Below, one piece after another: positions 35,152 through 57,241 of a stretch of DNA of 64,000 nt. A model generated the notes under the pieces. That model was not told the origin of the DNA. It worked only from the letters and a program-made list of their open reading frames with translations, and did no database searches. The position numbers were made by a program, and so were the translations under genes. How positions within the stretch are numbered: the first letter of the stretch is position 1; the number at the start of each line of letters is the position of its first letter. The DNA lies in the NCBI RefSeq assembly GCF_002283555.1, contig NZ_MVOI01000006.1, forward strand, positions 762,040 through 826,039, read 5' to 3'. This stretch comes from Rubrivirga sp. SAORIC476 (lineage in GTDB: Bacteria > Bacteroidota > Rhodothermia > Rhodothermales > Rubricoccaceae).

Positions 35152-37557
35152 TCAAGTCGCCAGCGCGTAGCGATGTCGCAGCGGGAAGATGTCTCCCCGG
35201 CGGAAGTCGCTGACCGTCGGGACTGTAGGCCAGCGCGTTGCCGGGCGTCGCTGCCCGACGCCCGACGCCGACAGATCTGTCCCCGACACATAGGCCCGGC
35301 GGATGCGCGCGTCGCCGCTGTCGAGAATGTCCAGTGCCGCCTCGGCGTCGGCGCCCGTCAGCACGACCGAGTGCGTGTCCTGCCCCGTCGCCGCCTGGAG
35401 TGCGGCCAGCGACGTGTAGGTCGTCCCGTTGACGGCCCACCGCGTCAGCGTGCCGAGGAAGAGGTAGAGGTTGTAGTCGGAGATCAAAGTGCCCGTCACG
35501 TTGAACGCCTGACCCTCGCTCCGGAACACCGAGTAGAGCGCTGTCAGCCCCGAGGGCGCCCGAACGCACCCGAATCCGCCTGTGTCGTCGATCGTGCATC
35601 GGTCGACCGAGAGCGCGACACCCGTGGGTGGTTGGATGGGACGGATCCCACCCGTGCGGATGTGCATCTCGGACATCGTCCACGTCCCCACCGAGACCCC
35701 CGACGGCAGCACGGGCGCCAAGTTGTCGGACCCGTCGCTGCGTACCACCATGCCGACTGTCACCAGCTCGGCCGTCGTCGGCTGGAGCGGCGAGCGGACG
35801 TTCTCGACGTAGAGGCCCTCCACCTCGACGCGGTCAGCAACACAGTACACGCCGCCGTCGCAGTCTGCCACGAGCCCGCCGACCACCCGAGCGAGGCCGG
35901 GGTTCGGGCTGCCCGGGGCGAGCGCAGCGTGAGTGTAGAACGCCCGTGACGCGTCTTGGGTGTAGTCGCCCGCCGCCGACGGCATCCCGAACCCCGCGTA
36001 CACGTTGCGCTGGAACAGCGCGACCGCGTCCTCGGCCGTCGGCGTGGCGATGGTGTAGACGAAGCCGCGCCCCTTTCCGCTGTCGGTCGCTGGCACCATC
36101 TCGAACCCCAGGCAGTCCCGGATGACCGCCTGCTCGGTAAGGTCCACGATGGTCACGCCGTGGACGGGCATCCGCCGGAACTGAGCGCGCTCGATCGTCA
36201 CGTTGCCGGTGCCCTCCAGCCCGTTCTCGTGGACGTAGCCCTGCGCGGCCAGGCCGGACACCAAGGCCCGCTCGCCCGCCCGGATCGGGTTGCGGTAGTG
36301 GCTGTAGGTGAAGAACGCCTCTCCGAGCGTGGGGTCCTCCGCACCGGTCGGCTGGAGCGTGATGGTGACCGTGTGGGTGCCCGGACCCGTCCCCGACGAG
36401 TAGTCGACGTGGTAGGTCCCGGCCGTCACCGAGGCCGCCGCGTCCACGCGCCCGTACTGGTCGAACGAGGGAGACAGGTTCGTCGCCGAGGGCACCTCCC
36501 AGACCTGCACAAGCCCCTTGTCGGAGTTCGTGTCGTCGATCGTGACGGTGGCCTGGTAGCGACCGCCCGAGATGGCCGACCAAGCGCCCGCCGGGATCGC
36601 GAGCATCCCGGTGAGCAGCGGGAGAGGGTCCGCCGAGTCCTGGCCGCCCTCGAGCACGTCGGAGATCTGCACGCCAGCCGTCACGGCGTCGGAGAGCGTG
36701 CCTGTGGCCCTGTAGCCGCGGGCCAGCGCGAGGACGTGATTCGTCGCCAGCGTCGGCAGCGCGTCGCTACCGCGGAGGCGCGTCGGGGCGGCCTGCCCGC
36801 GGACGTGGTCGAGCATCCGTGCCACCACGTCGGGGTCAGCGGCCAGGTCGCCCGCCGCGTCTGCAAGAGGCGTCACCGGCTCCAACTCGGCGGCTGCATC
36901 CTCAGCGGCCTGGATGCGCCCCCCGAACGTCGCGACATCGGCGCTGGCCTCCTCAGCCTCGGCTGATGCCTCGGCCACCAGGGTCCGCTTGGTCAGAGCC
37001 CGCATCGAGAGAGGGAGCGCGCGCGCGATCGTGGTGAAGGAGTTCAGCCCGGCCGTGAGCTGCGACCAGTCCACCTCGGCCGTTCCGCTGACACCCGAGG
37101 AGTTCTCCGGGTTGATCGTCACGAGTGACGGCGGGTCTCCCGACGCCAGGTAGAACTGAGCCGCCAGCGTCCCCGCATCGAGGTCGGCGAACTTGACCGA
37201 CGACACCCCGCTCACCTTGTGGTCGACTCGGTACACGCCGATCCGCTTGCCGACGGCGCCGTCCAGCGAGAGGTCCACCAGTAGCCTCTCGATGACCTCG
37301 TAGAAGTCGAGTGTGGCCTGAGGGACCGTCGGCAGGAGGTCCTCCTTGGCCGCGGAGTCGACCCACTGCGGCGCCCGCGCCTGCCGAACCGCCGCGGCGC
37401 CGTCGAACGAGATGGTCTCGGCCGTCTCCTCTGCGGTGTCCGCCGCCGCTTCGGCGCGCGCCGCGCCTGAGTTGGCGGCGTCCTTTGCAGCGGTGAGATT
37501 GGCCAGCTCTGCCGCCAGCGCGGCGTCGCTAAAGCTCTGTCCGGGTCGGGATCCCAT
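35152..37557 (-). CDS. Tail fibre / tail-spike-like protein
   Basis: 801 residues from the ATG at 37557, which shares one base with the stop of the upstream hub gene (TAATG). The N-terminal ~60 residues are an Ala-rich coiled coil (AAKDAANSGAARAEAAADTA). A beta-rich middle follows, and residues ~430-740 have repeated short strands with G/N turns (IERAQFRRMPVHGVTIVDLT, VVGGLVADCDGGVYCVADRV) suggestive of a right-handed beta-helix, as in receptor-binding spikes. Position at the distal end of the tail gene block supports a host-recognition fibre. The receptor is unknown. Confidence 0.7.
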   Translation of the reverse strand: MGSRPGQSFSDAALAAELANLTAAKDAANSGAARAEAAADTAEETAETISFDGAAAVRQARAPQWVDSAAKEDLLPTVPQATLDFYEVIERLLVDLSLDGAVGKRIGVYRVDHKVSGVSSVKFADLDAGTLAAQFYLASGDPPSLVTINPENSSGVSGTAEVDWSQLTAGLNSFTTIARALPLSMRALTKRTLVAEASAEAEEASADVATFGGRIQAAEDAAAELEPVTPLADAAGDLAADPDVVARMLDHVRGQAAPTRLRGSDALPTLATNHVLALARGYRATGTLSDAVTAGVQISDVLEGGQDSADPLPLLTGMLAIPAGAWSAISGGRYQATVTIDDTNSDKGLVQVWEVPSATNLSPSFDQYGRVDAAASVTAGTYHVDYSSGTGPGTHTVTITLQPTGAEDPTLGEAFFTYSHYRNPIRAGERALVSGLAAQGYVHENGLEGTGNVTIERAQFRRMPVHGVTIVDLTEQAVIRDCLGFEMVPATDSGKGRGFVYTIATPTAEDAVALFQRNVYAGFGMPSAAGDYTQDASRAFYTHAALAPGSPNPGLARVVGGLVADCDGGVYCVADRVEVEGLYVENVRSPLQPTTAELVTVGMVVRSDGSDNLAPVLPSGVSVGTWTMSEMHIRTGGIRPIQPPTGVALSVDRCTIDDTGGFGCVRAPSGLTALYSVFRSEGQAFNVTGTLISDYNLYLFLGTLTRWAVNGTTYTSLAALQAATGQDTHSVVLTGADAEAALDILDSGDARIRRAYVSGTDLSASGVGQRRPATRWPTVPTVSDFRRGDIFPLRHRYALAT

Positions 37558-40226
37558 TATCCGAGGGTGCTCTGGACGGTCACGCCGTCCGTGTACAGGT
37601 CGAGGCCCGACGCGTCGATCGCGATCGTGCCCTGGAGGAAGTCGCGGCCGAAGGCATCCCACCAGTAGTGCCGGTCCACGTAGAGGCGGTCTCCCGGAGC
37701 GATGCCCACGCCGAACGCAGACGAGATCGTCACCAGGTAGCCGAGCGACGTCGGCTCCACGTCCGCCACCGTGCGATCCGTCACCGTCCCGTCGCCGGCG
37801 ACGTGGCGGAGGGTGCCGCCCACCCGTGGCGCGACGTAAGTCTCCAGCATCGTGCTGGTGGCCACCACCGCGTTTCGCACCGTGGTTCGTGGCCAGTGGC
37901 GAATGACCTGGTGAGGATGCAGCTGCCGAGCGCCAGCGGCGGTCCCGTCGCCCTTCAGCTTCAGGGTGCCACGCAGCGCGGTTGCGCGCGCCGCCTGGCG
38001 GACGGCCTCGATGGCGTCGAGCGCGTCGATCGTGTCGCCGCTGGAGGGCGCGCCCGACCCATAGGCGCCCACCGTCCATCCGGTGTTGTCGCCCCACGTC
38101 GTCGTCTGCCAGGCGAACGCCCCGTCCTGGACGACGAGCGCAGTGTCGGACTCCGCCACCGGTCCGTCCCCGATCTCGTGCGCCTCGGCACGCCCGGCGA
38201 GCGCACCCGGCACGCCGCCCGACAGCATCGCCGCCGCGCCCGTCTTCGAGGCTGGCCGGGTGCGCCCGTCCTCGGCGACCAGGTAGCCCACCTCGACGCG
38301 GTCGATCGACCAGACTTCGGACCCTTGCTCGGCATTGGCCACCGGCACGCCCGACGCCAACGCGAGGCGCGCGCCCTCGAACCAGGTCACGAACGCCCCG
38401 TCGATGGCGAGGCCGTCCGGTGTCACCGCGTAGGTCTGCACGTCCATGTCGATCGGCGCCGTCGACTCACCGGTCTCGTCCAGGAGCCGGATTGCCGTCC
38501 GGTCGAGGTCCTCCGAGAAGTAGTAGAGGGCCGCGGTCGCGCCGCTGTCCAGGTCGTCCGAGATGTCGCCCTCCAACTCCGTCGCGCCCACCACGACCGC
38601 CTTCGTCAGGGTGAGGACCGGAGACGCCGACGCGTGGGTACCGCCGACCGGGTTCGAGAAGCGGACCTTGATGCCGGCCGGCACGATCGCCGTTCCGTCG
38701 ACGTGGTCGGGGTAGCTGGCTAGGAACGGGTCGATGGGGATCCGGACGCTGTCGCCGGGGAGGCTTGGGGCGGTCGCTGTCACGACGCTCCGCTTCACCG
38801 AGTACGTGTCTCCGTCGCGCGTCTCGACGCCGACCGCGAGGTAGGCCGGTCGCGCCTGCTTCGTGTCGTCGAACGCGCCCGTGTAGGGCTGCCACTGGAG
38901 GCGCGACCGGAAACGGATCACCGCGTTCGGGTCCGAGGGGATGCGCACGACGCCGCCCTGAGCGATCACCGGGCGCGATGGCGTTGCGCGGTCGTCCGAG
39001 AACCGAGCGGCCCACACGTCGCCAGCCGTCGGCTGGAACGGGGGCGTCCCGGTCGTGAGGCTGAACCGCTGGCAGACCGTCGGCCCCGTCGCCGAAGTCA
39101 CCCCTCCGGAGCCAGTCCCTCCGCCGGTCATGCTCCATCCCTGCGCAACGGTCGCGCCTGCTGAGCCTGCCGTCTCGAACGACCCGTTCGACATCAGGTC
39201 GTCCAGGTCCGGCCGGAAGTCGTACTCCACCTCGACGCGTCGCATCGGCACGCCGCCGCTGTCGTCCGGCGCCCCCTGCCAGTTCCAGCCCCACGTGTCC
39301 ACGACCGGATTCCGTGCGGCGGCGGTCTGCGCATCGTTGTCGATCGCCCCGGAGTTCGCGTCGTACGCGAACTCCGGAATGGTACCCGCCCCGCCGCTGG
39401 CGAGGGCGCGCGCCAGAGCCGAGCGCTGGGTCATGTACCAGCGCCCCTCGCTCTGATACAGCCTCGCCTGGAGGCGCCGAGCGATCGTACGGACGGCGTC
39501 CCGCTCCGAGACGCTCGCGCCGTCCACGAGCCACGCCCGTTGCCGGGCACCCACCGCGCGCACCGGGTCCACTGAGGCCGGGACATGGGTCGTCGGCACC
39601 CACGGCCTCCAGTCGACGCAGGTCGTCAGCCCGGTCCACAGGTCGTCCGCCGACCCGATGGCCTGGAGGATGCGAGCCAGCCCCGTCTGGAACCGCTCGA
39701 TGGTGTCCAGGTCGTCCGAGTCTCCGAACGCCCCGGCCGGCGCCCCGCTTCCGGCGAACGCGCGCCCGGCCGACACATGCAGCCCGCCTGCGAACCGCAG
39801 CTGCAGCGCGTCGGAACCCGCGTAGGTCCTCGCGTCGACGGACTCCGGGAGCAGGAAGCCAGCGAACTGAGTCGTCCAGCCGCTGTCGTCGAGGCCGTAC
39901 GACACGCCCGGCGTGACTGTCGTGGACCTCTGGATCGCGAGCGCCACGAACCCGTCCGGACGCCCGGCGAGAGGCAGCGTCATACCGGCCTGCCCGAAGC
40001 CCGGCGCCTGGCGGAGCATGAGCTGTGCCGCCGCCGGAGCCGCCGGGCCCAGCGACGGCACGCCACCCGACTCTCCCATCGACCACTCTGCGACGCACTG
40101 GAGGCACGGCAGCACCGTCGTCCCACCGAGGTAACCCGCCACCAGAACGAGCGCGCGGTAGAGCGGCCCGTCCTGGCCGACCCATTCGGCTGCCAGCGCC
40201 GTGCCGTAGGTGGTGCTCGGTGTCAC
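37557..40226 (-). CDS. Tail tip / hub structural protein
   Basis: 889 residues from a GTG at 40226 that overlaps the tape-measure stop (GTGA), which indicates translational coupling. The N-terminus (MTPSTTYGTALAAEWVGQDG) and the long beta-rich body have no catalytic motif I recognise. By position between the tape measure and the fibre, and by size, it should be the distal tail/hub component that joins tube and fibre. A role in DNA ejection is inference from synteny. Confidence 0.65.
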   Translation of the reverse strand: MTPSTTYGTALAAEWVGQDGPLYRALVLVAGYLGGTTVLPCLQCVAEWSMGESGGVPSLGPAAPAAAQLMLRQAPGFGQAGMTLPLAGRPDGFVALAIQRSTTVTPGVSYGLDDSGWTTQFAGFLLPESVDARTYAGSDALQLRFAGGLHVSAGRAFAGSGAPAGAFGDSDDLDTIERFQTGLARILQAIGSADDLWTGLTTCVDWRPWVPTTHVPASVDPVRAVGARQRAWLVDGASVSERDAVRTIARRLQARLYQSEGRWYMTQRSALARALASGGAGTIPEFAYDANSGAIDNDAQTAAARNPVVDTWGWNWQGAPDDSGGVPMRRVEVEYDFRPDLDDLMSNGSFETAGSAGATVAQGWSMTGGGTGSGGVTSATGPTVCQRFSLTTGTPPFQPTAGDVWAARFSDDRATPSRPVIAQGGVVRIPSDPNAVIRFRSRLQWQPYTGAFDDTKQARPAYLAVGVETRDGDTYSVKRSVVTATAPSLPGDSVRIPIDPFLASYPDHVDGTAIVPAGIKVRFSNPVGGTHASASPVLTLTKAVVVGATELEGDISDDLDSGATAALYYFSEDLDRTAIRLLDETGESTAPIDMDVQTYAVTPDGLAIDGAFVTWFEGARLALASGVPVANAEQGSEVWSIDRVEVGYLVAEDGRTRPASKTGAAAMLSGGVPGALAGRAEAHEIGDGPVAESDTALVVQDGAFAWQTTTWGDNTGWTVGAYGSGAPSSGDTIDALDAIEAVRQAARATALRGTLKLKGDGTAAGARQLHPHQVIRHWPRTTVRNAVVATSTMLETYVAPRVGGTLRHVAGDGTVTDRTVADVEPTSLGYLVTISSAFGVGIAPGDRLYVDRHYWWDAFGRDFLQGTIAIDASGLDLYTDGVTVQSTLG

Positions 40227-42550
40227 TGGAGCACCCCCGGCCCGGAGCCGATCCGAAGCTCCTCCTGGAGGCCCGTGCGTACGCTGGCCACACTCACCTG
40301 GTGCGGAATGAAGATGCCGCCGGGCACAGCTCGCGCGCCGCCCGTGGACACGTTGACGCTGATCGCCGGGATCAGGCCACCGGCCGAGACGCCGCCGCCG
40401 CCCGCGACTGCGTTCGACAGCCCCGCCCCGCCCGCGATCGTCGCGATGGCCGAGCCGATGAACCCGCCGATCCCACCGGTGCCGGCGTTGAAGACCGCCG
40501 AGAGCCCCTTGAGGATGAGCGCCTTCGCGATGGCGGCCGCGATCGAGGCGGCGACGTCGGAGAACACGCCGATGATGCCCTGTCCGAGCGAGACGGCGGC
40601 GGCCTTCAGCGACTCCAGCGGGTTCCGGAACGCGACCATCTCGCCCACGGCGTCTCCCACCGCCTGGGCGACGCCGACGACCGCATCCTCAATGGCGACG
40701 AACGCCGTCCGGTACGCGTACGCCATCTCCAGCTGGCTCTCGTCGAGGCCCGGCGCCTGCTCCCTCGCGAGCCGAGGCAGACGAAACCGTCCGACCACGT
40801 CGTCCGCGGCCAGCTTCGGCGCCCGGCGCTGGATCAGGTCGAACGCCGCCGTCTGCTCCGCCATCATCGAGCGGAACTCGTCTGCGTAGCGACGGAACGC
40901 CGCGGCCCCGTCGCCGCCCGCCACCTGCGCAGCCGAGGCCATGGCTCCACGCAGCGCATCGAGGCGAGCACGCCCGGCATCCAGGGGCGTCATCTGGCCC
41001 GCCTCGGTCATGCGCTCGATGCCCAGCAGCGTCGTCCGGAGCGAGTCGCGGATGCCGTCGAGCTGCGACCGCGTCTCGGCCGTCGCCGTCGACACGTCAC
41101 CCGCTGCCGCGGCGACGCTCTCGCCCACCCCGGACCCGAGGTCATCCATCGTGGCCATCGCCCCGGCCACCGCCGATCGTGCGTCCGCGGTCGCGGCCGC
41201 CAGCTCGGCGCGGATGGAGCCCCCGGCTGCCTGGAACGTGTCCCCGATCTTGTCGCCGGCGGAGCGGAGGTCGGCCGAGAGCCGCGCCACGTTGGCCGCA
41301 CTGGCCGCGACCGCCTCCGGCGAGACGATGTTCTCGATGCGCGCCTGCACGCCCTCGATCGTCGACGCGACGTCGTCCGCTCCGAGCGCCTCCGCCACGC
41401 GCCGCGCGGGCTCCAGGAGCTTAGCCCCCAGGCCCGACATCGTACGGATCAGACGCAGGAACGCGCCCTCGACGCGCGCCTGCACGAGCCCCATCGCGGC
41501 CGTCGTCGCGGAGACCACGCCCTGCCAGAGGTCGCGGAAGAAGGCCGAGATCCCCGCCCAGTTCTTGTAGATCAGGTAGGCTGCCGCCGCGAATGCCGCC
41601 ACCACAGCCGTGATCGCGATGATCTTCGCCGTGAGGATCAGCGTCGATCGGTTCACCGCCAGCAGCGCCGCGCGGATCTTCGGCAGCACCACCAGCAGCG
41701 TGCCCAGCGCGACCAGGAGCGGACCGGCCGCCGCCGCCAGGCCTGCAACCACCAGGATGCTCGCCTTCACCGGCACCGGCAGGGCCTGGAATCGCAGCGT
41801 GAGGTCGTTCAGGAGGTTGATGACCGGGTTCAGCGCCACCAGGATGAGCTGCCCGAACTGCTCCGAGAGGTCGCCGACGTTGTTCGTGAACTGCTTCAGC
41901 GGACCCGTGCCCGCCCGTGCCGCCGCGGCCGCCGTCCCGCCGTACTGCACCTCGAGCTCGTCGAGGATGAGGTTCTGCGCCTCCGCGATGCGTCCCGTCT
42001 CCGCGAGGTTCTTGATCACCTCCTTCTGCGAGTCCGAGAACTGGACACCGGCGCGAGACATCGCCGTGATGCCGCGGACCGGGTCGTTGAGCGCCTTGCC
42101 CACCATGATCGCCGAGCTCTGCAGGTCCGTCCCCAGCTTCGCCGAGAGGTCCAGCACCGCGACCTGCGCCCGGTCGAACTGGTCGCCGGCCACCTTGCCG
42201 AACGTCAGCATCTGCTGCGTGACCCCGGTCAGGATCTCCTCGTCACCGAACAGCGAGGTCTGCTGCAGCTCCGACGCCTGCGCCGTCAGCTGCTCGATGG
42301 TCCGACCGGCGACGCCTCCCGTAGACCGGATGCCGTTCTCGACCGCCGCGATCGCCTTCGCCTGCTTGTCCCATGCCCGCACCGAGAGCGCGCCCAGCGC
42401 CACGATCGGCGCCGTCACGTAGGCCGACATGCTCTTGCCGACGCCCTGCATCTGGCGGCCGAGGCGGACGACGTCGCCGTTCGCCTCTCGAAACGCCTTC
42501 CGCATCGACGAGAGGTCGGCCCCGATCCGGACTTTCAGTTCACCGAGCAT
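40223..42550 (-). CDS. Tail tape measure protein
   Basis: 775 residues. The N-terminal MLGELKVRIGADLSSMRKAF and the KVAGDQFDRAQVAVLDLSAK / SAIMVGKALNDPVRGI segment are hallmarks of siphovirus tape-measure proteins. Hydrophobic segments lie near 275-310 (ILVVAGLAAAAGPLLVALGT) and near 330, followed by long helical Ala-rich coiled coil and a Gly-rich C-terminus. It sets tail length, and at about 0.15 nm per residue the helical part would predict a tail on the order of 115 nm (family rule, not measured). It starts 3 bases after the T-frame stop. Confidence 0.93.
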   Translation of the reverse strand: MLGELKVRIGADLSSMRKAFREANGDVVRLGRQMQGVGKSMSAYVTAPIVALGALSVRAWDKQAKAIAAVENGIRSTGGVAGRTIEQLTAQASELQQTSLFGDEEILTGVTQQMLTFGKVAGDQFDRAQVAVLDLSAKLGTDLQSSAIMVGKALNDPVRGITAMSRAGVQFSDSQKEVIKNLAETGRIAEAQNLILDELEVQYGGTAAAAARAGTGPLKQFTNNVGDLSEQFGQLILVALNPVINLLNDLTLRFQALPVPVKASILVVAGLAAAAGPLLVALGTLLVVLPKIRAALLAVNRSTLILTAKIIAITAVVAAFAAAAYLIYKNWAGISAFFRDLWQGVVSATTAAMGLVQARVEGAFLRLIRTMSGLGAKLLEPARRVAEALGADDVASTIEGVQARIENIVSPEAVAASAANVARLSADLRSAGDKIGDTFQAAGGSIRAELAAATADARSAVAGAMATMDDLGSGVGESVAAAAGDVSTATAETRSQLDGIRDSLRTTLLGIERMTEAGQMTPLDAGRARLDALRGAMASAAQVAGGDGAAAFRRYADEFRSMMAEQTAAFDLIQRRAPKLAADDVVGRFRLPRLAREQAPGLDESQLEMAYAYRTAFVAIEDAVVGVAQAVGDAVGEMVAFRNPLESLKAAAVSLGQGIIGVFSDVAASIAAAIAKALILKGLSAVFNAGTGGIGGFIGSAIATIAGGAGLSNAVAGGGGVSAGGLIPAISVNVSTGGARAVPGGIFIPHQVSVASVRTGLQEELRIGSGPGVLQ

Positions 42551-42553
42551 GGT

Positions 42554-42928
42554 CTACGCGAGGGCCGGTGGTGCGGAGGAGGCATCCGCTGGAGGGAACC
42601 AGTGAGGGTGACGGCGCCGGACGGCCGCCGCGTCCCCGCCTCGGGGAGCGGTCGGGGCGACGAGCCCGAGCATGGGTCCGGCCGCCTCGGCCTTGCCGGC
42701 GAGCGCGTCGGCGACCATCCCGGCGCGGATGCGATCTGCGGCGAGATGGCCCATCACGGCGTCGAGGTACTGGCGGAGGCTGAGGAAGTCGAGGTCGGCG
42801 TCGGTCGGTCGGTAGCCCAGCAGCCCGAAGCACATCCTGTCGCGGACCGTCCGCGACAGGAACTGGCTCAGCGCGGGCGCTTCCGCCGGTCGGCCGCGGA
42901 CTGCGTCTTGCGTTCCGCGGCCGCCGAC
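42554..42928 (-). CDS. Tail assembly chaperone, -1 frame extension (GT-type)
   Basis: The second frame is open from the slippery site at 42928 to the stop at 42554, 124 codons. It continues through LSQFLSRTVRDRMCFGLLGYRP and DLDFLSLRQYLDAVM. The ATG at 42835 could serve as an independent start, but the upstream in-phase coding is continuous and similar in style. As in lambda G/GT, a minority of ribosomes shifting -1 would make a ~245-residue fusion with the G-type chaperone that recruits tail tube subunits and tape measure. Confidence 0.75.
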   Translation of the reverse strand, partial: VGGRGTQDAVRGRPAEAPALSQFLSRTVRDRMCFGLLGYRPTDADLDFLSLRQYLDAVMGHLAADRIRAGMVADALAGKAEAAGPMLGLVAPTAPRGGDAAAVRRRHPHWFPPADASSAPPALA

Positions 42929-43290
42929 TTTCCCTCCGCCTCCTCCTCGGCCAGACCCTGCAGCGGCGCCATGATCTGGGGCAGCAGGCGCCCGAGGTCG
43001 CCGAACGAGATCAGGTCGGTCACGTCCTCCTCGACCAGGTCCTCGTCGAAGGGCAGCATCCCAGCGTAGACGAGCTGCCCGACCTTGCCGAGCATCGGCG
43101 CGAACGCCTCCATCCCGGCGTCGTCACCGAGGCCGTCGAGGTCCTCCAGAATCCTGGGGATGTCGATCCCCTTGGCCGAGGCCAAACGGAACGTCACGTT
43201 GCCGAGAAACCACGGGTGCTCCTCGTGCAGGATGGTGAGCCGGACCGTGTCCGGGTGCTGAAGCAGGCGCTCTGCGCGGGTCTGAGGCAT
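42868..43290 (-). CDS. Tail assembly chaperone (G-type)
   Basis: 140 residues (MPQTRAERLLQHPDTVRLTI), with a helical C-terminus rich in Glu/Lys (EEEAEGKSAAAERKTQ). It lies between the tail tube and tape-measure genes, the standard place of the chaperone. Twenty codons before its stop is the heptamer GGGAAAG in the G-GGA-AAG phase, permitting a -1 shift into the downstream frame. The unshifted product ends in a basic tail (DRRKRPR). Confidence 0.8.
   Translation of the reverse strand: MPQTRAERLLQHPDTVRLTILHEEHPWFLGNVTFRLASAKGIDIPRILEDLDGLGDDAGMEAFAPMLGKVGQLVYAGMLPFDEDLVEEDVTDLISFGDLGRLLPQIMAPLQGLAEEEAEGKSAAAERKTQSAADRRKRPR
42928..42934 (-). promoter_or_regulatory. Programmed -1 ribosomal frameshift site GGGAAAG
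   Basis: Read on the minus strand, G GGA AAG lies in phase with the chaperone frame (GGA and AAG are codons) and fits the X-XXY-YYZ rule. The -1 frame is open across the join and stays open for 124 codons. It is the heptamer reported for phage lambda's G/GT genes. Confidence 0.85.
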
Positions 43291-43315
43291 CGAGGGAAGG
43301 TTTCTGTGGAAACGT

Positions 43316-43335
43316 CTGGGCGGACAGGCGCCCGG
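43316..43335 (-). terminator. Hairpin after tail tube gene
   Basis: CTGGGCG and CGCCCGG arms (one wobble pair), 6-base loop, directly after the tail-tube stop. Read leftward it is followed by CAGACGTTTCC. It may be a partial terminator that lowers expression of the chaperone and tape-measure genes relative to the tube. Confidence 0.45.
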
Positions 43336-43336
43336 G

Positions 43337-44179
43337 TCAGGTGGTGGCCTGGCGGGTGAGGGCGCCGGTGCCCTCCAGCGTCGCCGACACGGTCACCTGC
43401 CCCGCGTAGGGGGCCGTGATCGAGACTGAGGCGGGGTAGGCCGAGCCGGTGTACTCGCTCGCGTCCACCGTCTGCGTGCCCAGGAGCACCGTCAGCGGCG
43501 TCGCGGCATCCGTCGCCAAGAAGGCCGAGAGCAGTCCCGCGAGGCCGGTGCCGAGGCCGCTGGAGTTGTTGATGACAGGGCCATCGGCCACCAGCGTGAC
43601 GCCCGTCTTCACGATGTCCTGCGCCGACTTGGTCAGGCTGGTAGTGGTCGGGCGCGCGTCGAACGTGAACGACAGGCCGCCGACGCTCACGACCACCCCC
43701 AGCGGCTCCGTGCTCACGCCGAGAACCGTGTCCTGGATCGCCTTGAACGCGTCCGAGCCCGTCGCCAGCGGGTCGTAGTAGTCGAACGAGAGCGACAGTT
43801 CGAACGACCGCGTGTTCGGGTCCAGGGTCCGGCTCATGCCAGACGTCGCGTTGACCACGTCGGTCAGGTTGAGCGAGAACGACAGGCCTGCCTCCGTCAG
43901 CCCCTTCAGCGGATCCGTGTCGATCGTCACGGTCAACGGCGCACCGGTGGCGTGTCCCGTGATCAGGTCGCCGCCGCTCGCGTCGACGAGGCCATCAGCT
44001 TGCACCGACCAGGAGCGCACGCCGTCGGTCTTCGCCATCCAGTTGGCCAGCCCGTCGTGCACCGCGTCATCCAGCGCCTGGCTCACGGTGAGCGTGCCAC
44101 CGGTCGTGCAGCCGATCATGTTGCCCGCCGCGAGAAGCGCCAGGTCGAGGGAGGGGAGCGTCGTCGTGGGAGCGGGCAT
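43337..44179 (-). CDS. Major tail (tube) protein
   Basis: 280 residues from the ATG at 44179 (MPAPTTTLPSLDLALLAAGN), 2 bases after the stop of the terminator-protein gene. It is a beta-rich protein with many Thr/Ser/Gly residues (TVTIDTDPLKGLTEAGLSFS). The last ~80 residues (LLGTQTVDASEYTGSAYPAS, VSATLEGTGALT) look like an added Ig-like or sandwich domain. Position before the frameshifted chaperones and tape measure defines it as the tube subunit that polymerises around the tape measure. Confidence 0.75.
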   Translation of the reverse strand: MPAPTTTLPSLDLALLAAGNMIGCTTGGTLTVSQALDDAVHDGLANWMAKTDGVRSWSVQADGLVDASGGDLITGHATGAPLTVTIDTDPLKGLTEAGLSFSLNLTDVVNATSGMSRTLDPNTRSFELSLSFDYYDPLATGSDAFKAIQDTVLGVSTEPLGVVVSVGGLSFTFDARPTTTSLTKSAQDIVKTGVTLVADGPVINNSSGLGTGLAGLLSAFLATDAATPLTVLLGTQTVDASEYTGSAYPASVSITAPYAGQVTVSATLEGTGALTRQATT

Positions 44180-44181
44180 GG

Positions 44182-44655
44182 TTACTCGCCGGGAGCGGCG
44201 GGCTGGTAGAGCGTGTAGCGGAAGCGGATCGGGATGCCCCACGGGCGCGCACCCGGAGGCGGCTCCCGGAAGGGGTCACCGTTGAGGTCGAGCGTCGCGG
44301 CCGTCATCTGGATCTCGGTTGCGGAGGTCCCCTCCGCATCGTCCGGCACGGCGAACCGCCGCCCCAACTGGTTCACCAGGACCTGCACGATGGCCTCGGC
44401 ACCGGCGAGCGTCGAGGCCCGCGCCACCATCGAGAGGGTGGCCGTCACCGAGCGCGTCGTGTCCGAGCGCTGGGTCTCCACCTCGGTTGCACCCTGGACC
44501 TCGACGTAGGGCAGGTCCGAGCCCTGCTCCGGATCGACGGCCACCCCGCCCGCCGCCGGACTGGCGACGCCGGCGGCCACGAGCGCAGCGGCGCCCGCGC
44601 CCGAGGTCAGGCGCGCGATCGCGGCGAGGCGGAGCGGAGGAGCGGTGGAGGTCAC
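44182..44655 (-). CDS. Tail completion/terminator protein (DUF3168-like)
   Basis: 157 residues (MTSTAPPLRLAAIARLTSGA). The segment SDLPYVEVQGATEVETQRSD followed by ATLSMVARASTLAGAEAIVQ fits tail-terminator proteins of the DUF3168 class, which cap the tail tube and bind the head connector. It overlaps the gp10-like gene upstream by 4 bases (ATGA-type) and is followed directly by the tube gene, the usual order. Confidence 0.7.
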   Translation of the reverse strand: MTSTAPPLRLAAIARLTSGAGAAALVAAGVASPAAGGVAVDPEQGSDLPYVEVQGATEVETQRSDTTRSVTATLSMVARASTLAGAEAIVQVLVNQLGRRFAVPDDAEGTSATEIQMTAATLDLNGDPFREPPPGARPWGIPIRFRYTLYQPAAPGE

Positions 44656-45008
44656 GAACTCAGGATGCGGCGGAGGCCGTCGTAGTAGGCGCGGGCGTGC
44701 GCCTCGAAGGCCGGGAAGAGGAAGGGGTGTGCCGAGAGGCGCTTGGTGCCGTGCTCCACGAACCGCGCGTAGAAGACGCCGGCGACGACGTCCGCGACCA
44801 GGTCGGTGAGCACCCGCGTGAGGTCGACCTTGACGGAGTCGCGGAGCGTGCCCGAGCGCTTCGGCGCAGCGGCCGCGGCGTCGCGCTCGATGTCGGCCGC
44901 GATCCGGCCCAGGAGCGCCTGGATCTCCAGACGCTTGCGCTGCTCCCAGAGCTTGAGCGCGCCCGCGAACTCCTCCTCGCCGTCGAGATCGACTGTGAAG
45001 GTGGGCAC
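44652..45008 (-). CDS. HK97 gp10-family head-tail protein
   Basis: 118 residues. The family pattern is clear: an N-terminal MPTFTVDLDGEEEFAGALK, then a helix with AADIERDAAAAAPKRSGTLR, and the YARFVEHGTKRLSAHPFLFP segment (in the family, 'Y...vEfGT....aqPFl.PA'). The final helix is AFEAHARAYYDGLRRILS. HK97 gp10-type proteins act at the head-tail joint. It lies 4 bases after the closure gene. Confidence 0.85.
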   Translation of the reverse strand: MPTFTVDLDGEEEFAGALKLWEQRKRLEIQALLGRIAADIERDAAAAAPKRSGTLRDSVKVDLTRVLTDLVADVVAGVFYARFVEHGTKRLSAHPFLFPAFEAHARAYYDGLRRILSS

Positions 45009-45012
45009 TGCA

Positions 45013-45345
45013 TCACGCGCCCCCGTCGCTGTTGAGCAGGCACAGGAACTCCCGCCCCTCGCGCCGCCGGATCTCGCGGATCGACTCGATGTCGAGGATC
45101 CTCCCGTCGGGCAGCACCAGCCGGTCCGTCGGCGTGAGCGCCTCCGTGTCGGAGTAGCGCGCCGTCACGACCACCGGCTGGCGGCTGTCGACCTGGCCGG
45201 CTCGGATCTGCTCGCGGCCCGTTGCCTCGTCGACGGACGCCCAGAACGGCGTGCCGTCCGACCACGCGTCCGTCGACTCGCCCGCCGACCAGGTCGGCGT
45301 CGAGGACTGAGGCGTCACGAGCGTGTCGAGGCGGCCGACGTTCAC
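45013..45345 (-). CDS. Head closure protein (SPP1 gp16-like)
   Basis: 110 residues from a GTG at 45345, which overlaps the connector stop as GTGA. The sequence VNVGRLDTLVTPQSSTPTWS, the SVDEATGREQIRAGQVDSRQ segment and RLVLPDGRILDIESIREIRR fit the small beta-barrel closure/adaptor family ('R....GR.y.I..i......R...l.l'). It seals the DNA channel after packaging and joins the tail. Position is between the connector and the gp10-like gene. Confidence 0.75.
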   Translation of the reverse strand: MNVGRLDTLVTPQSSTPTWSAGESTDAWSDGTPFWASVDEATGREQIRAGQVDSRQPVVVTARYSDTEALTPTDRLVLPDGRILDIESIREIRRREGREFLCLLNSDGGA

Positions 45346-45926
45346 GAGAGGTGGAGGCGGTAACGGTAGCGGTGCGAGGCGGTCAGGAAGTCGTAGCTGG
45401 CGGGCACCGTCGAGACGGTCGTGCCCGCGACCGCCAGCCCGCGCATGTCGTACAGGTGGAGCGTGAGCGCCTTGATGGCCACCAGAAGGTTGTCCGGGAT
45501 CGGCTCCCCGCCGTCGGCACCGAGGCCGCAGGTGTAGACCACCTCCACCGAGCCCGGCCGCCCGTAGTGCGTCGGCACCGAGCCCGTCAGGCAGACCGCG
45601 CCGGGGCTGCCTGGGATCACCGAGTACTCCTCGGCCGCCAGCGTCTGCATCACGCCGTCGAAGTCGGCCACCTTGACCGACTGGACCGACAGCAGCGGCG
45701 GGCTCGGGATCTCCAGGACGCCGCTGCAGGGCCACCGCTCGATGGTGAGCTTGCGCCGCTGCTCGCCGAGCGCGTAGCCGGTCGTCTCCTCGACCCGGAG
45801 CCGCGCGGCCGTCACCAGCTGCTCGATGAGCGAGTCCTCGGACGTCGCCGTCACACGCAGGTACGCCCGTGCCTCAGCGAGAGACACGGGCTCAGCCTGC
45901 GACGCTTGGACGACGACGATCTGCAT
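45342..45926 (-). CDS. Head-tail connector protein (gp6/gp15-like)
   Basis: 194 residues. The N-terminal part EPVSLAEARAYLRVTATSED followed by SLIEQLVTAARLRVEETTGY is the signature of gp6-like connector proteins, and the rest (LTIERWPC, PLLSVQSVKVAD) matches the longer version of that family. It forms a ring beneath the portal. Its ATG is shared with the stop of the small upstream gene (45926). Confidence 0.85.
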   Translation of the reverse strand: MQIVVVQASQAEPVSLAEARAYLRVTATSEDSLIEQLVTAARLRVEETTGYALGEQRRKLTIERWPCSGVLEIPSPPLLSVQSVKVADFDGVMQTLAAEEYSVIPGSPGAVCLTGSVPTHYGRPGSVEVVYTCGLGADGGEPIPDNLLVAIKALTLHLYDMRGLAVAGTTVSTVPASYDFLTASHRYRYRLHLS

Positions 45927-46231
45927 CAGTCGGAGGACTTCGCGCGCTTCGTCTTGCGGACGGGCTTCGGGTTGGCGTCCGCCGTCTCAGGCGGCGTCAC
46001 GGTGGCGGTCTCGACCGTGGGGCCGGCGGCCTTCTCGGCAGCGGCCTTCTCGGCAGCGAGGCGGTCCGCCATCTCCGGCCACTCGGCCGTGATCTCCTCG
46101 CCGTCTGCGACCTCGGCGTGGCCCGCCTCGATCCAGTCGCGGGCGATGTCGTCGGTCACGTCCAAGACGCCACCAGGACGGAGGGAGAAGTCGACACCGG
46201 CGAGAGCGGTCTTGCGTCGGATGCGAGTCAT
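45926..46231 (-). CDS. Small phage structural-region protein
   Basis: 101 residues. Residues 1-50 (LAGVDFSLRPGGVLDVTDDI, ARDWIEAGHAEV) resemble small head-associated proteins that carry a 'G....d.....a..wi..G.A' motif, common between capsid and connector genes. The C-terminus is an Ala/Glu-rich then Lys/Pro-rich low-complexity tail. It overlaps the connector gene by one base. Function unknown. Confidence 0.65.
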   Translation of the reverse strand: MTRIRRKTALAGVDFSLRPGGVLDVTDDIARDWIEAGHAEVADGEEITAEWPEMADRLAAEKAAAEKAAGPTVETATVTPPETADANPKPVRKTKRAKSSD

Positions 46232-46242
46232 CGAGTCGGGGG

Positions 46243-46644
46243 CTAGGTGACCGGCTGCGTGCGCGCGTCACCGCGGAGCACGAGAGCCGAGATGGGGATG
46301 GTGGGGCTCGTGCCCGACACCGACGGGATCGTGACCCGCAGGAACTGCTTCGAGCCCGAGTAGCCGCGCCGGATGACCGCCGCGTCGTTGCTCGTGTCGA
46401 AGGCCGGGAGCGCGCCCCCGATCAAGTCCTCCGGGCCGACGTTGCCCCACGCCGAGCCGTCGGCCGACTCCTGGATGCGGATGTTGGCGCCCGGCGTCGT
46501 GCCCCCGAACGTGCCCAGGTTGATGACGATGGTCGCCGACTCGAAGCCGGTAAGGTCGACGCTGACGCCGGTGACGGCGCCGGCTGCCACCTGGGGGACG
46601 AGAGAGGAGGCGGGGCTGAGGCCGCTGGATCCGTCGTAGAGCAT
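46243..46644 (-). CDS. Possible capsid decoration / head-associated protein
   Basis: 133 residues (MLYDGSSGLSPASSLVPQVA). It is beta-rich with the segments SVDLTGFESATIVINLGTFG and ANIRIQESADGSAWGNVGPE. This 'F.sati.in.G......i.vqeS.Dg..w..v' pattern is common in small phage proteins next to the capsid gene. It lies 66 bases downstream of the major capsid gene, past a hairpin with a T-run. The decoration role is inference. Confidence 0.6.
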   Translation of the reverse strand: MLYDGSSGLSPASSLVPQVAAGAVTGVSVDLTGFESATIVINLGTFGGTTPGANIRIQESADGSAWGNVGPEDLIGGALPAFDTSNDAAVIRRGYSGSKQFLRVTIPSVSGTSPTIPISALVLRGDARTQPVT

Positions 46645-46659
46645 CGCGGGAGGGGCTGG

Positions 46660-46695
46660 AAAAGGCGCCGACCCGGACTCCTCCAGGTCGACGCC
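46660..46695 (-). terminator. Terminator-like hairpin after the major capsid gene
   Basis: Read leftward: GGCGTCGACC, 12-base loop, GGTCGGCGCC (one mismatch), then TTTT. A leaky terminator here would raise capsid mRNA over the downstream connector and tail genes. Confidence 0.6.
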
Positions 46696-46710
46696 GTGTC
46701 GGTCCGCCGG

Positions 46711-48333
46711 TTAGGACGGCGTGTTCTGGAAGGACTTCACTGCCGTCGTGTCGAGCAGCGTGCCGTCGTGGCGGCTGAAGCCGAGGAAGCCCACCTGCAG
46801 CTGGTTCATGTACTTCTCCCGGAAGATGACCAGCTGCATGCCGAGCACGTCCCGGATGACGTACTCCGCCATGTCACCGAACACGATCGACTTCGCGCCG
46901 GCCGCCATCACCGGCATGTTCTGGTTGATCGTGTAGCGGTAGCTGAGGATCGTGTCCGGCTCGCGGAGCGCGATGCCCGGCACCCACAGCGGACGGCCGT
47001 CAGCGTCCTCCAGCTTCTTCAGCGCGCGGAGGGTCGTGTCGTGGAACTGCCACCCGGTGGACGGCATGCCGCGGTAGTCCGGATCGACCGAGTGCTCCAG
47101 GTCGACCAGGTCGCCGTAGGTCACCGAGGTAGCCTGCCCCGAGCCTGCCACCTTGCCGACCGCCGCCGCTGTCACCAAGCCCTTCGGCTGGCCGCTACCG
47201 GTCCCGGTCGTGAAGAGTCGGGACGTGATCCGCCCGAGACGCTTCGAGATGACACCCTCCAAGAACGTCTCCAGGTCGAACGCCGAGTCCTGCATCAGCT
47301 GGATCGACACCCGGATCAGCTTCGAGCTGAACATGTACGCGCCGAGCGTCTCCTGGCCGAACTCGACATCCTGCTCGCCGGCAGCGGCGTTCTCGGCCAG
47401 CAGCTCGCCCTCGTTCGACGTGTCGTCCGAGGTCGGGATCGGGATCTTGTTGCCCGACGCCGTCGACATGATCGTGACGCCGGACTGACGGATGCCGCCG
47501 AACGCCTTCATATTCTCGACGATGCGGTTGTAGAAGCCCTCCGGGACGGTGTAGCCGCCGGCGGTGTCCGTCCCGACCGAGAGGGCACGCTGCTCCGGGG
47601 TCAGCTGCTCGAACCGCTCTGCCAGCAGCTGGCGGTCCTCCGTCGTCGCCCGGCCTCGCAGGTGCCGCCCGAACGCTTCGCTGTAGCGCTTCTCGGCAGC
47701 CTGCGCCTCGTCGCCCGAGATCTCGCGCGACTCGATCTCGCCCGAGGCCGTCCGGCTGCGGACCTCCTGCGGTGCGTCCATCTCCGCCTGGAGATCCATC
47801 TGGCGCTCCTCGTTGTCGATCTGCGTCCGGAGCTCCTCCACCTCCGTGTGGATGGCATCGAACCGCGTCTGCTCCTCGGCAGACAGCGCGTCTCGCTTCT
47901 CCTCCTTGGCCTTGTCCAGAATGCCGCGCGCCTCCTCGGCGAGCGTCGCCCGCTTCGAGCGCAGCTCCTTGATGCGCGCGACCGGCGCCGCCGCCAGCGC
48001 GAGCCCGACCACGTCGTGGTGCAGCGCGGTCGCGACCAGGTCGACGATCGCGCCCGTGCCGCCGGCGTCACCGACCAGCGTAGCCACGCCGACGGCCATC
48101 ACCGCGCCGACCGCCAACGCCGACAGTGCCCCGGCCGAGCCCGAGGCGGACGCCCGGGGCGCAGGGCCGACGGGACGGCCGTCGGTGTGGTCGGTCCAGC
48201 CGGTGTAGTTCTCGACCGGCACGGTGAACGCGTCCGGAGCGTAGGGCTCAGCGCCGAACGTCTGGGCGTGCACACCGGCGGTCACGAGGAGGAGCCCGAT
48301 GAGGGCTGCGAAGAAAGAGCTGAGCGCTCGCAT
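46711..48333 (-). CDS. HK97-fold major capsid protein with signal-peptide-like N-terminal extension
   Basis: 540 residues from the ATG at 48333. Residues ~118-245 are a coiled-coil delta (scaffold) domain (RIKELRSKRATLAEEARGIL, RFDAIHTEVEELRTQ). The HK97 fold follows from about 260 (DTAGGYTVPEGFYNRIVE, IPIPTSDDTSNEGELLAENA, VFGDMAEYVIRDVLGMQLVI). Unusually, residues 1-23 (MRALSSFFAALIGLLLVTAG) look like a classical signal peptide with an AHA-Q cleavage site, followed by a second hydrophobic stretch at 66-90. The capsid proper would start near residue 118, so either a downstream start is used or the extension is real and removed by the prohead protease. Confidence 0.88.
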   Translation of the reverse strand: MRALSSFFAALIGLLLVTAGVHAQTFGAEPYAPDAFTVPVENYTGWTDHTDGRPVGPAPRASASGSAGALSALAVGAVMAVGVATLVGDAGGTGAIVDLVATALHHDVVGLALAAAPVARIKELRSKRATLAEEARGILDKAKEEKRDALSAEEQTRFDAIHTEVEELRTQIDNEERQMDLQAEMDAPQEVRSRTASGEIESREISGDEAQAAEKRYSEAFGRHLRGRATTEDRQLLAERFEQLTPEQRALSVGTDTAGGYTVPEGFYNRIVENMKAFGGIRQSGVTIMSTASGNKIPIPTSDDTSNEGELLAENAAAGEQDVEFGQETLGAYMFSSKLIRVSIQLMQDSAFDLETFLEGVISKRLGRITSRLFTTGTGSGQPKGLVTAAAVGKVAGSGQATSVTYGDLVDLEHSVDPDYRGMPSTGWQFHDTTLRALKKLEDADGRPLWVPGIALREPDTILSYRYTINQNMPVMAAGAKSIVFGDMAEYVIRDVLGMQLVIFREKYMNQLQVGFLGFSRHDGTLLDTTAVKSFQNTPS

Positions 48334-48385
48334 GGATCCGGGGGGATGGAAGAAGGCTGCGCGGGGAACCGCGCGGTTAAGGCCG

Positions 48386-49135
48386 CTACGCTGAGGCCTG
48401 GCGGAGCTCGCGCTCCAGCGTGTCGATGGATCGGCCCGCCGGGGCCGAGATGCCGGCGCCCGCCAGCAGCGCGTCCAGCGCCGCGCGGGAGTCGTCTGAG
48501 AGGTCGCCCGAAGCGCACCGCGCCTCGACGAAGGCCTCCAGGTCGCGGACACCGATCTCGGTGTCGTCGTAGGCCGGGAAGGTCACCGGGCTCACGTCGT
48601 AGAGCCGGACCGAGAGCAGCTCGCGGAGCACCGTCCGGACGCTCCGGCCCTCGGCATCCTCGGAGACCTCCTCGGTCCAGCGCTCCTCGATGACCACGAA
48701 CGCGAACGACATCTGGTCGACGTCGCCGCGCTCGATGCTCGTGCAGAGGTCGCGCGCCAACTGCGTGTCAGGCAGCGTGATCTCCACCTTCAGCCCGACG
48801 GCGTCCTCGCGGAGCGTGAGCGTGCCGCTCTTCGTCCGGCCGAGGACCAGGTTGACATCGTGGTTGAACAGCGCCCGGACGTCGTCGCCCTCGTCGATGG
48901 CCACCGAGAACGCGCCCGCGCGGATCACCTCGGTGAAGTAGCGGAGGTTCGACGGCTTGTCGAACTTGGCCGCGTAGCCCACCAGCACCTTCGGACCATC
49001 GTCCTCGCCCGCGCGGGTCTCCAGGCCGGTCACGACAAACCGGCGCTCGACGAGCGGGTTCGTGCGGCGGAGGGCTGGGCGGTCGCCGGACGTGCGCGTT
49101 TCGGGGATCACGAAGGGGGGAGCCTGTGAGCCCAC
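48386..49135 (-). CDS. HK97-family prohead maturation protease
   Basis: 249 residues. The family motifs are: VLVGYAAKFDKPSNLRYFTE, IRAGAFSVAIDEGDDVRALF followed by NHD (catalytic His), LGRTKSGTLTLRED, the serine in DVDQMSFAFVV, and LYDVSPVTFPAYDDT. It assembles inside the prohead and cleaves the capsid delta domain. It lies between portal and capsid genes as in HK97. The C-terminal ~40 residues (SDDSRAALDALLAGAGISAP) are a helical tail probably used for encapsidation. Confidence 0.92.
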   Translation of the reverse strand: MGSQAPPFVIPETRTSGDRPALRRTNPLVERRFVVTGLETRAGEDDGPKVLVGYAAKFDKPSNLRYFTEVIRAGAFSVAIDEGDDVRALFNHDVNLVLGRTKSGTLTLREDAVGLKVEITLPDTQLARDLCTSIERGDVDQMSFAFVVIEERWTEEVSEDAEGRSVRTVLRELLSVRLYDVSPVTFPAYDDTEIGVRDLEAFVEARCASGDLSDDSRAALDALLAGAGISAPAGRSIDTLERELRQASA

Positions 49136-49180
49136 AGGATCTCCCTTGGCTGGATCAGCCTGTGGCCATCGTCGTGGCCA

Positions 49181-51502
49181 TCACGATGTGCCGATGCGGC
49201 GGATCTGCCGTTCGCCGATCGTCGCCCACCCTTCGGCCTCCGCGTTCCGGGTGATGTAGTCTTCGATGTGGGCGATAGCGGGACCCATCCCAATGCTCTC
49301 GACGAGTGGGGCGTAGGTCCGGCGGATGTAGGCATTCCGAGCCGCATCGGGGTTCGGCTCCCTCGCGCGCCGCGCTTGCGCCTCCATCCCGGCCGATGCC
49401 AAGAGCCCTCTCCATAGGTCCCGCACCTCCGCCTCTGTCGGCCGAGAGCGAGCGCCGGTACCCGGCATCATGATGCAGTCGCACCCGTCGTGGATCGGCG
49501 GATGCGTCACCCGGCCCGACACGTCGAGGTCGGCCACTGTGTCGCCGTCCGCCGCGAACGACCCAGCGATCCGCGACGTCCGCCCGTCCATCTCGTTGCA
49601 GATCGGGCAGCTCTTGCCGACGGTGCGCCACGTCAGCGTGGCCACGCCCAGCACCGCCCACACCGCCCGCGTCATCGCGTTGCTGGAGCGCTGGCGCTCG
49701 CGCCGTGCCGTTGTCTCCGCCCGGCCGTCCTCCCACTCCGCCAGGCGCTCGGCGACCGCGTCCGCCTCGGTGCCCGCCTCGACCTCCTCGACGAGCCCGA
49801 GGATCTGCCCGCGCATCGAGCCCGCGTGCCGCTTCGCGAACACCTTCGAGTACTGCCGCACGAACGCGTCGATCTCGTCGCCGGACACGTCCTCGTCGAG
49901 CTCCGCGCCGGCAGCCTCGACCATCGCGTCCGCCATCGCCTGGAACACGGGCCGCATCCGGCCCTCCGTCCAGGTCTCGTGCTCGCCCGCGAACGTCACG
50001 AGCCACTCGCCGAACCCGGCGACGTCCGGCTCGTCGCCCGCCAGGCGCTCGTCGACGGCGCCGCCGATCTCGCTCACCTCGCGCGCCACGATCTTCTTCA
50101 ACGCGGCCCGGAACGTCGTCTCCAGCGCCTTCGCCGTGCGGTACCGGTCCGGGAGCGCACGGCGCTCGATGGAGCGGCGAGTCTCCCCGCCGACCGGCCG
50201 GAAGCGTGCGGAGAGGTCCTCGTCGCCGGCGGCCATCGGGTCGGTCCCCGCCTCCACCATGTTGAGCGGCTGCAGGTAGATGTCTCCGCCGTCGACGGGG
50301 TTCATGTCCTCGCTCTCTCGGATGTCGTTGACCGAGAGCCATCCCCAGTTTCGACCCACCGCGTACGCCTCGTTCCGGCTCTTCACGTCGCCGCGGAGGA
50401 GCGCGTCGACGGAGTGCTTCACGAACAGGTCCGTCTCGTCCTCCAGCAGGCTCGCCTCGATCTCCTGCTCAATGCGGACCAGCCACGGGCCAAGCGTGTG
50501 CATCACGAACTCCAGCCCCTGATGCTCGATGTTGGAGAACGTCGCCCGCTCCAGGTCCCCGACCATGTGGGGCGGCACCCGGTAGATCGCCGCGACGTCG
50601 CGTGCCTCGAACTTCCGCGTCTCGATGAACTGAGCGTCGCCGGGTGGCAGGCCGACCTGTGCGACGTCCATCCCCTCCTCGAGGATCTTCACCTTCCACG
50701 CCTTGTCGACGCCCTGGTGGCCGTCGGCGAAGTCCCGCTTCAGCCGGTCATAGGCCGTGTCGCTGAGCTGCTGAGGGTGCTTGACGTAGATCCCCGGCCT
50801 GGCGTCGTTGGCGAAGAACTTGGCGCCGTACTTCTGCGCCGAGATCGCGATGCCCAGCGACTCACGCATCAGCTGGATGGGGCTCTTCCCCACGTAGCCG
50901 TCGAACCCGAGCCCTGCGATGTGGACGATCTCATCCTCCCGGAACGGGCGGCTCACCCCTTCGACGCGGTACGTCTTCGTCGGGCGGATCTTGTCGGAGC
51001 CCTTCTCCACCCGAACGCACCGAGGCGGAAGGGGCCAGAGCCCGACCACGCGCCCGGCGCCGTCGAGCTGCTTCTCCCAGTACGCGTTGCCCCAGAGCGC
51101 CAGGTGAACCATGGTCACCTCGCGCAGCTGCATCGCCGTCATCAGCGGGTTCGCGCGCCGGTGCAGCACGCCCGCCAGCGGATGGTCCGTCACCCGCTCC
51201 CGGGCCCGGCCGTTGCGGCGGTACAGCTTCAGGGGGAGCATCGACACGCCTTCCGCCAGCACGCGAACGCACGCGTAGACGGCCGTGAGGCGCATCGCGT
51301 GCTCCTCCGTCACCGCCTGCCCGGACGCCGTCGGTACCGCGCCGAGCGCCGACCGGAGCCAGGCCGACGGCTCCGCCAGCGTGCTGGTCGCGCCCGAGGA
51401 GCGTTCGTCCAGGACCAGCGTCCCGCCGGCCTCGGCGAACGCCTTGAGGTCGATCGGTGCGCCGGACGTGGTCCGGGTGGTCTGCGCTTGGGTGGTCGTC
51501 AT
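49181..51502 (-). CDS. Portal protein fused to MuF-type minor head protein
   Basis: 773 residues. Residues ~60-430 are an HK97-type portal (LTAVYACVRVLAEGVSMLPL, LWGNAYWEKQLDGAGRVVGL, HIAGLGFDGYVGKSPIQ, YRVPPHMVGDLERATFSNIE). Residues ~560-740 resemble the Mu gpF head-morphogenesis domain. They include the zinc-finger-like CPICNEMDGRTSR and HPPIHDGCDCIMMPGTG, where Cys/His spacing fits a metal site. Portal and MuF are usually separate genes. It is a single uninterrupted frame, 4 bases overlapping TerL, so the fusion looks real. The MuF part may travel into the head or be ejected. Confidence 0.88.
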   Translation of the reverse strand: MTTTQAQTTRTTSGAPIDLKAFAEAGGTLVLDERSSGATSTLAEPSAWLRSALGAVPTASGQAVTEEHAMRLTAVYACVRVLAEGVSMLPLKLYRRNGRARERVTDHPLAGVLHRRANPLMTAMQLREVTMVHLALWGNAYWEKQLDGAGRVVGLWPLPPRCVRVEKGSDKIRPTKTYRVEGVSRPFREDEIVHIAGLGFDGYVGKSPIQLMRESLGIAISAQKYGAKFFANDARPGIYVKHPQQLSDTAYDRLKRDFADGHQGVDKAWKVKILEEGMDVAQVGLPPGDAQFIETRKFEARDVAAIYRVPPHMVGDLERATFSNIEHQGLEFVMHTLGPWLVRIEQEIEASLLEDETDLFVKHSVDALLRGDVKSRNEAYAVGRNWGWLSVNDIRESEDMNPVDGGDIYLQPLNMVEAGTDPMAAGDEDLSARFRPVGGETRRSIERRALPDRYRTAKALETTFRAALKKIVAREVSEIGGAVDERLAGDEPDVAGFGEWLVTFAGEHETWTEGRMRPVFQAMADAMVEAAGAELDEDVSGDEIDAFVRQYSKVFAKRHAGSMRGQILGLVEEVEAGTEADAVAERLAEWEDGRAETTARRERQRSSNAMTRAVWAVLGVATLTWRTVGKSCPICNEMDGRTSRIAGSFAADGDTVADLDVSGRVTHPPIHDGCDCIMMPGTGARSRPTEAEVRDLWRGLLASAGMEAQARRAREPNPDAARNAYIRRTYAPLVESIGMGPAIAHIEDYITRNAEAEGWATIGERQIRRIGTS

Positions 51503-57065: not shown

Positions 57066-57076
57066 AAACGCAGAAA

Positions 57077-57116
57077 CGGCCGGCGCACCGCTCCGGGAGG
57101 AACGGGGCACCGGCCG
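57077..57116. promoter_or_regulatory. Hairpin upstream of the endolysin gene
   Basis: CGGCCGG and CCGGCCG arms, extendable to 14 positions with two mismatches, ending 11 bases before the endolysin ATG. It could be a terminator for the upstream small gene or a leader structure. Confidence 0.4.
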
Positions 57117-57241
57117 AGGGCAGGTGGGGAGGCCCGGCTGGATGTCTCTCCAGCGCGCCGCCGAGGGCGGGGGCTCAGCCTGCAACGTAGGGCCGCGAAC
57201 ACGGGTTCGCAAGGGACGCACTGCCTCGGCGACGACTTCCG

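Follow-up and report, generated by a model that had tools for sequence, protein, structure and literature searches.

The lambda G/GT frameshift class has reportedly been known since the 1990s, from work attributed to Levin and colleagues in 1993. Frameshifting of this class in tail chaperone genes is reviewed in PMC5009743, passages of which give a ratio of 30:1 for the lambda products gpG and gpGT and describe G_GGA_AAG as highly shift-prone in E. coli. For two genes of an HK97-like phage tail chaperone cluster, a section of PMC3711429 gives shifts of 6% and 7%.

Here we describe a similar locus in the window, by which we mean the whole stretch of 64,000 nucleotides of Rubrivirga sp. SAORIC476 DNA that was analyzed. 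A reading of this DNA made from sequence alone (the sequence-only reading) had proposed that the tail chaperone gene carries a programmed -1 frameshift of the lambda G/GT type. Gene order, an in-phase heptamer, a coding-like -1 frame and the layout found in relatives all support this proposal, which we consider very probably correct, with a downstream stem-loop that probably raises the rate of shifting.

Layout of the locus

The features of the locus are collected in Table 1. ORF1, which measures 423 nt including its stop codon, and the -1 ORF that follows it are flanked by the genes for the tail tube (PF06199) and the tape measure (PF06791), bearing out the earlier placement of the chaperone gene between these two. 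The tape-measure ATG at 42550 comes shortly after the stop codon of the -1 frame (42556-42554). Upstream of the tail tube gene and on the same strand, we found genes for an HK97-gp10-like protein, a head-tail connector, a portal and a large terminase. Outside the phage region, past its terminase end, lie a peptidase M15 gene (56286-57221) and, near it, a gene for an ion transport protein (57530-58258; PF00520, E 2e-35). ARAGORN detected no tRNA gene in the whole window, and an Rfam scan of positions 40000-46000 returned nothing at the gathering score.

Table 1. Features of the predicted tail chaperone locus, in window coordinates
Feature	Position	Strand	Basis or remark
Major tail tube protein, start codon provisional	43337..44185	(-)	PF06199, E 4e-06; PHROG 1407, E 2.7e-14
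ORF1, tail assembly chaperone (G-like), 140 aa	42868..43290	(-)	Position, BFVD matches
Slippery heptamer GGGAAAG, read G GGA AAG	42928..42934	(-)	Phase 2 relative to ORF1 ATG
Predicted stimulatory stem-loop, 10-bp GC-rich stem, starting 4 nt past the heptamer	42891..42923	(-)	Folding energy
Perfect 13-nt inverted repeat with 1-nt centre, predicted hairpin ending at the first -1 ATG	42835..42861	(-)	Repeat search and fold
-1 frame extension (T-like domain), 124 codons plus stop, predicted fusion of 245 aa	42554..42928	(-)	Open, coding-type GC
Tape measure protein	40223..42550	(-)	Pfam PF06791, E 2.7e-08; PHROG 27166, E 2.1e-68

The sequence-only reading was right that an in-phase GGGAAAG stands near the end of ORF1. 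The window has two copies of the motif on its minus strand; in the one at 42934-42928, the AAG is followed by 19 sense codons and then the ORF1 stop. A similar script run on lambda finds GGGAAAG in this phase too, close to the 3' end of ORF1, where 5 sense codons of G remain as against the 19 in the window. Lambda ORF1 is likewise 423 nt long including its stop, and the lambda -1 frame is open to the tape measure gene; this likeness is one of layout and site.

Neither ORF1 nor the -1 part matched a Pfam family, and no PHROG profile was convincing, PHROG 2115 (tail protein) reaching only E 0.086. Sequence and fold searches of the PDB likewise gave no match of use (best Z 3.0). With a four-sequence alignment as input, AF2 gave a best ORF1 model with a pLDDT of 73.7, the other four models scoring 50-61. 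Compared with BFVD, the ORF1 model was closest to a protein of Salinibacter phage M1EM-1 (E 3.2e-05), the sole match below 0.001 among the 50 listed. Among the names of the matches listed, tail assembly chaperone occurs ten times (E 0.03-0.93), tail assembly protein once (E 0.01), tape-measure chaperone once and tail tube protein four times; many matches carry no informative name. The AF2 model of the -1 part was poor (pLDDT 53) and was set aside.

The heptamer and the open -1 frame

Eight X_XXY_YYZ heptamers occur in 14,427 nt of phage genes, two of them in phase, the ORF1 site counted. Across the genome (4.48 Mb, both strands), GGGAAAG is found 200 times, compared with 169 times for a reversed control pattern. 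From the genome counts, about 0.002 in-phase copies of GGGAAAG are expected in the roughly 256 nt over which ORF1 and the open -1 frame overlap; the in-phase heptamer is unlikely by chance.

A recount of the -1 part agreed with the earlier figure of 124 codons free of stops, giving a predicted fusion of 121 + 124 = 245 residues, and the open frame measures 189 codons from stop to stop. The -1 part was said to hold a single ATG; this had to be corrected, as the ATG at 42835 is the first and further ones follow at 42754, 42718 and 42673. The frame had also been offered as evidence for the frameshift. Its openness is real, but it is weak evidence because the DNA is 71% GC and such runs are common: the other 12 phage genes contain 36 stop-free -1 runs, of which 14 are at least 124 codons long and 8 attain 189. 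On these counts, we rejected the open frame as proof of frameshifting. Past the ORF1 stop, GC at the three codon positions of the -1 frame is 0.79, 0.57 and 0.86, a pattern that resembles neighbouring genes and is unlike that of the other two frames. By its coding-type GC, the -1 frame looks protein-coding up to the tape measure gene.

The same arrangement in Salinibacter phages

A tblastn search of the phage collection with ORF1 retrieved chaperone relatives in Salinibacter phages only. ORF1 is 31% identical to the protein of M8CR30-2 and 30% identical to that of M1EM-1, while M8CR30-4 equals M8CR30-2 at 100% identity over the compared stretch. Among 395 whole genomes of the same phylum, the one with an ORF1 relative was the window's own genome, and two scans of genome contigs yielded none.

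Both M8CR30-2 and M1EM-1 carry GGGAAAG in the same phase as the window, followed by a -1 frame that is open to the tape measure gene. They differ from the window in that the next codon after the heptamer is already the ORF1 stop, and in the predicted downstream stem, for which z is 0.39 in M8CR30-2, no more than chance, and a moderate -2.09 in M1EM-1. The -1 part of the window aligns weakly, at 22-27% identity, with the -1 ORFs of the Salinibacter phages and of an IMG/VR locus described below (L015). Between M8CR30-2 and M1EM-1, the stretch from the slip site to the first -1 ATG shows no codon-position signal (6, 4 and 7 changes at positions 1, 2 and 3; 2 synonymous and 9 non-synonymous codons) and therefore lends no support to the -1 frame there. 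Past the first ATG, the signal is present, with 5, 0 and 14 changes.

The region 4986-5698 of two Salinibacter phage records (L002 and L003; MF580957 and MF580955) likely holds an unannotated -1 frameshift chaperone. Among the titles and abstract openings listed by searches of one open-access library, none reports a frameshift in a Salinibacter phage.

In the deposited records of M8CR30-2 and M1EM-1, the two ORFs appear as separate hypothetical proteins with no join. Annotation of the downstream ORFs as coding sequences of their own favors a reading in which the locus consists of two separate genes, the second initiating at ATG 42835 so that no fusion is made. The position of this ATG, 32 nt past the ORF1 stop, fits such an arrangement, as does that of the FGLLGY motif of the -1 frame, which lies after it. 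By eye, however, no Shine-Dalgarno sequence stands at a normal distance from the ATG, which an AGG directly abuts, and the ATG coincides with the end of the perfect inverted repeat, which may hinder separate initiation there. The Salinibacter phages also speak against it: both have the stretch WERFGYQEG upstream of the first -1 ATG, and between the slip site and this stretch there is neither ATG nor GTG nor TTG. Given, in addition, the in-phase heptamers of the relatives, we regard initiation of a separate gene as very unlikely and a lambda-type frameshift as the better account of the locus.

In-phase slippery sites in wider relatives

Similarity to the tape measure protein was found in 175 phage records, nine of which were read individually. 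In eight of the nine, ORF1 has an in-phase heptamer that starts 3 to 9 codons short of its end, and the -1 frame is open. The heptamer is GGGAAAC in RcCronus and R4C, AAAAAAC in S-CBS3, AAAAAAG in BpsS-36, Vibrio 1.240 and FPSV-S1, GGGAAAG in Pseudomonas phage P7869, and GGGAAAA in Bock. The scan detected no canonical heptamer in Eula, though its chaperone coding sequence, like those of RcCronus and Bock, is annotated as joined. Rhodobacter phage RcCronus resembles the window in its tape measure (residues 10-262, 46% identical), its in-phase heptamer near the ORF1 end and its -1 ORF reaching up to the tape measure gene; it differs in the letters of its heptamer and in that its chaperone was not retrieved by tblastn with ORF1 of the window. 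In Flavobacterium phage FPSV-S1 (L006, 1608-2314), the heptamer lies four codons from the end of the gene that precedes the tape measure gene and is followed by an open -1 frame, with no joined annotation.

In locus L001, the in-phase heptamer is CCCAAAA and the -1 frame stays open up to the contig end, which falls short of the tape measure gene, and three genomes of the window's phylum (L095, L096 and L097) have AAAAAAA, TTTTTTG and TTTTTTC in phase, respectively. With the two Salinibacter phages and the nine tape-measure records, these make up the 15 relatives read singly, 14 of which contain an in-phase X_XXY_YYZ site.

This layout bears on a reading in which the split is a sequencing or assembly error, or the remains of a decayed gene once in one frame. 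The data do come from one contig of one assembly, but the Salinibacter phages, which were sequenced separately, show this split with the identical in-phase heptamer, and phages whose coding sequence is annotated as joined share the layout; error or decay is extremely improbable.

A larger sample came from IMG/VR, in which 178 loci were found by tape measure and 80 were kept; 7 of these were incomplete, leaving 73 assessable. We required at least 60 codons before the site, a stop within 40 codons and at least 40 open codons after it. An in-phase site with this geometry was present in 61 of the 73 loci (42 of 50 after dereplication), compared with 5 for phase 0, 14 for phase 1 and 21 for a +1 shift in the same loci. 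The sequence-only reading had named the heptamer and an open second frame as features to check in homologues; most relatives, read singly or in bulk, have a slippery site of the class and an open second frame. TTTTTTG accounts for 51 of the 69 sites in these loci and is the type known from P2-like phages. In the remaining 12 loci the scan detected no canonical heptamer; they include L015 and L016, which are identical to each other here and whose tape measure is 45% identical to that of the window. At about 2218-2900, L015 and L016 share this two-ORF layout and have a comparable -1 domain with an FRLLGL stretch, with no X_XXY_YYZ site near the ORF1 end.

Slippage on homopolymers is known in transcription as well, and the site does contain runs of three G and three A from which RNA polymerase might yield the fusion; runs of only three are short for polymerase slippage, however, and the preference of the relatives for the X_XXY_YYZ phase (61 of 73 loci, compared with 5 and 14 for the two alternatives) leaves this account with a negligible probability.

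The sequence-only reading had inferred strong conservation of the heptamer itself. GGGAAAG is indeed shared by the window, the Salinibacter phages, P7869 and lambda, but most relatives keep the class of heptamer and use other letters. Because it is the class that most of them keep, the comparison suggests a constraint shared among slippery sites, and not one conserved sequence, as the likely basis of the match with lambda.

Predicted RNA structures

Over a 50-nt span, the predicted stem-loop region folds with an energy of -31.6 kcal/mol (shuffle z -3.85), compared with -9.9 kcal/mol for the same span in lambda. A fold as stable or better is reached by 0.33% of 5205 minus-strand segments over 37557-53220 and by 0.99% of 1011 GC-matched ones. 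For a 111-nt stretch, the shuffle z is -4.83, and the stem in this longer fold takes in the final base of the heptamer. Stimulatory structures usually lie 5-8 nt from the slip site, according to a passage of PMC4066793.

Across the 15 sites compared, z for a downstream stem ranges from -5.0 to +1.4. Bock, P7869, Vibrio 1.240 and L097 likewise have predicted stems with z below -3.5. Because z lies above 0 in M8CR30-2, FPSV-S1, BpsS-36 and L095, the stem is not a general feature, and we rejected a conserved downstream stem as a property of the family.

Just before the heptamer, the window contains the Shine-Dalgarno-like sequence GAGGAGGAGG, and M1EM-1 has GAGGAGG at the corresponding place. An upstream element of this kind was considered as a part of the mechanism and dropped because M8CR30-2 lacks it and it does not recur generally across the 15 sites.

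Host tRNAs

According to a section of PMC5009743, a single tRNA-Lys serves both AAA and AAG in about half of the bacteria known, among them E. coli. An Rfam search of the genome to which the window belongs (97.5% complete) found 47 tRNA genes, and ARAGORN, run on loci covering all 47, identified tRNA-Lys with anticodons CUU and UUU and tRNA-Gly with UCC, CCC and GCC. The host therefore differs from E. coli, which by the same section of PMC5009743 lacks a tRNA-Lys(CUU), and since this tRNA is present, slippage on AAG may be lower, a loss for which the stem might make up. One elaboration, which we hold to be rather unlikely, is that tRNA-Lys(CUU) pairs poorly with AAA and so weakens the reason for slippage that applies in E. 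coli, that the stem is what makes GGGAAAG work, and that the hairpin at the -1 ATG limits the T part to frameshifting, thereby fixing the ratio of G to GT.

Proposed mechanism and implications

In the lambda-type frameshift that we favor, most ribosomes would end at the ORF1 stop and release the 140-residue G-like protein. A minority would slip back by one base while decoding GGA and AAG, pair anew with GGG and AAA, and read on to complete the 245-residue G-T fusion, at a rate that the stem-loop 4 nt downstream would probably raise. By analogy with lambda, the G part may coat the tape measure protein and the T part may recruit the tail-tube protein, and the ratio of G to GT would matter in tail assembly.

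The site adds an ordinary member to the known lambda G/GT class and carries little surprise. The gain is in annotation, not in understanding: a likely GT fusion goes unmarked in two deposited records of Salinibacter phages. A rule documented for long-tailed phages is extended here to a prophage whose host bacterium is very GC-rich, and the tRNA-Lys(CUU) of this host makes the locus a modest test case for the dependence of slippage on AAG on host tRNAs.
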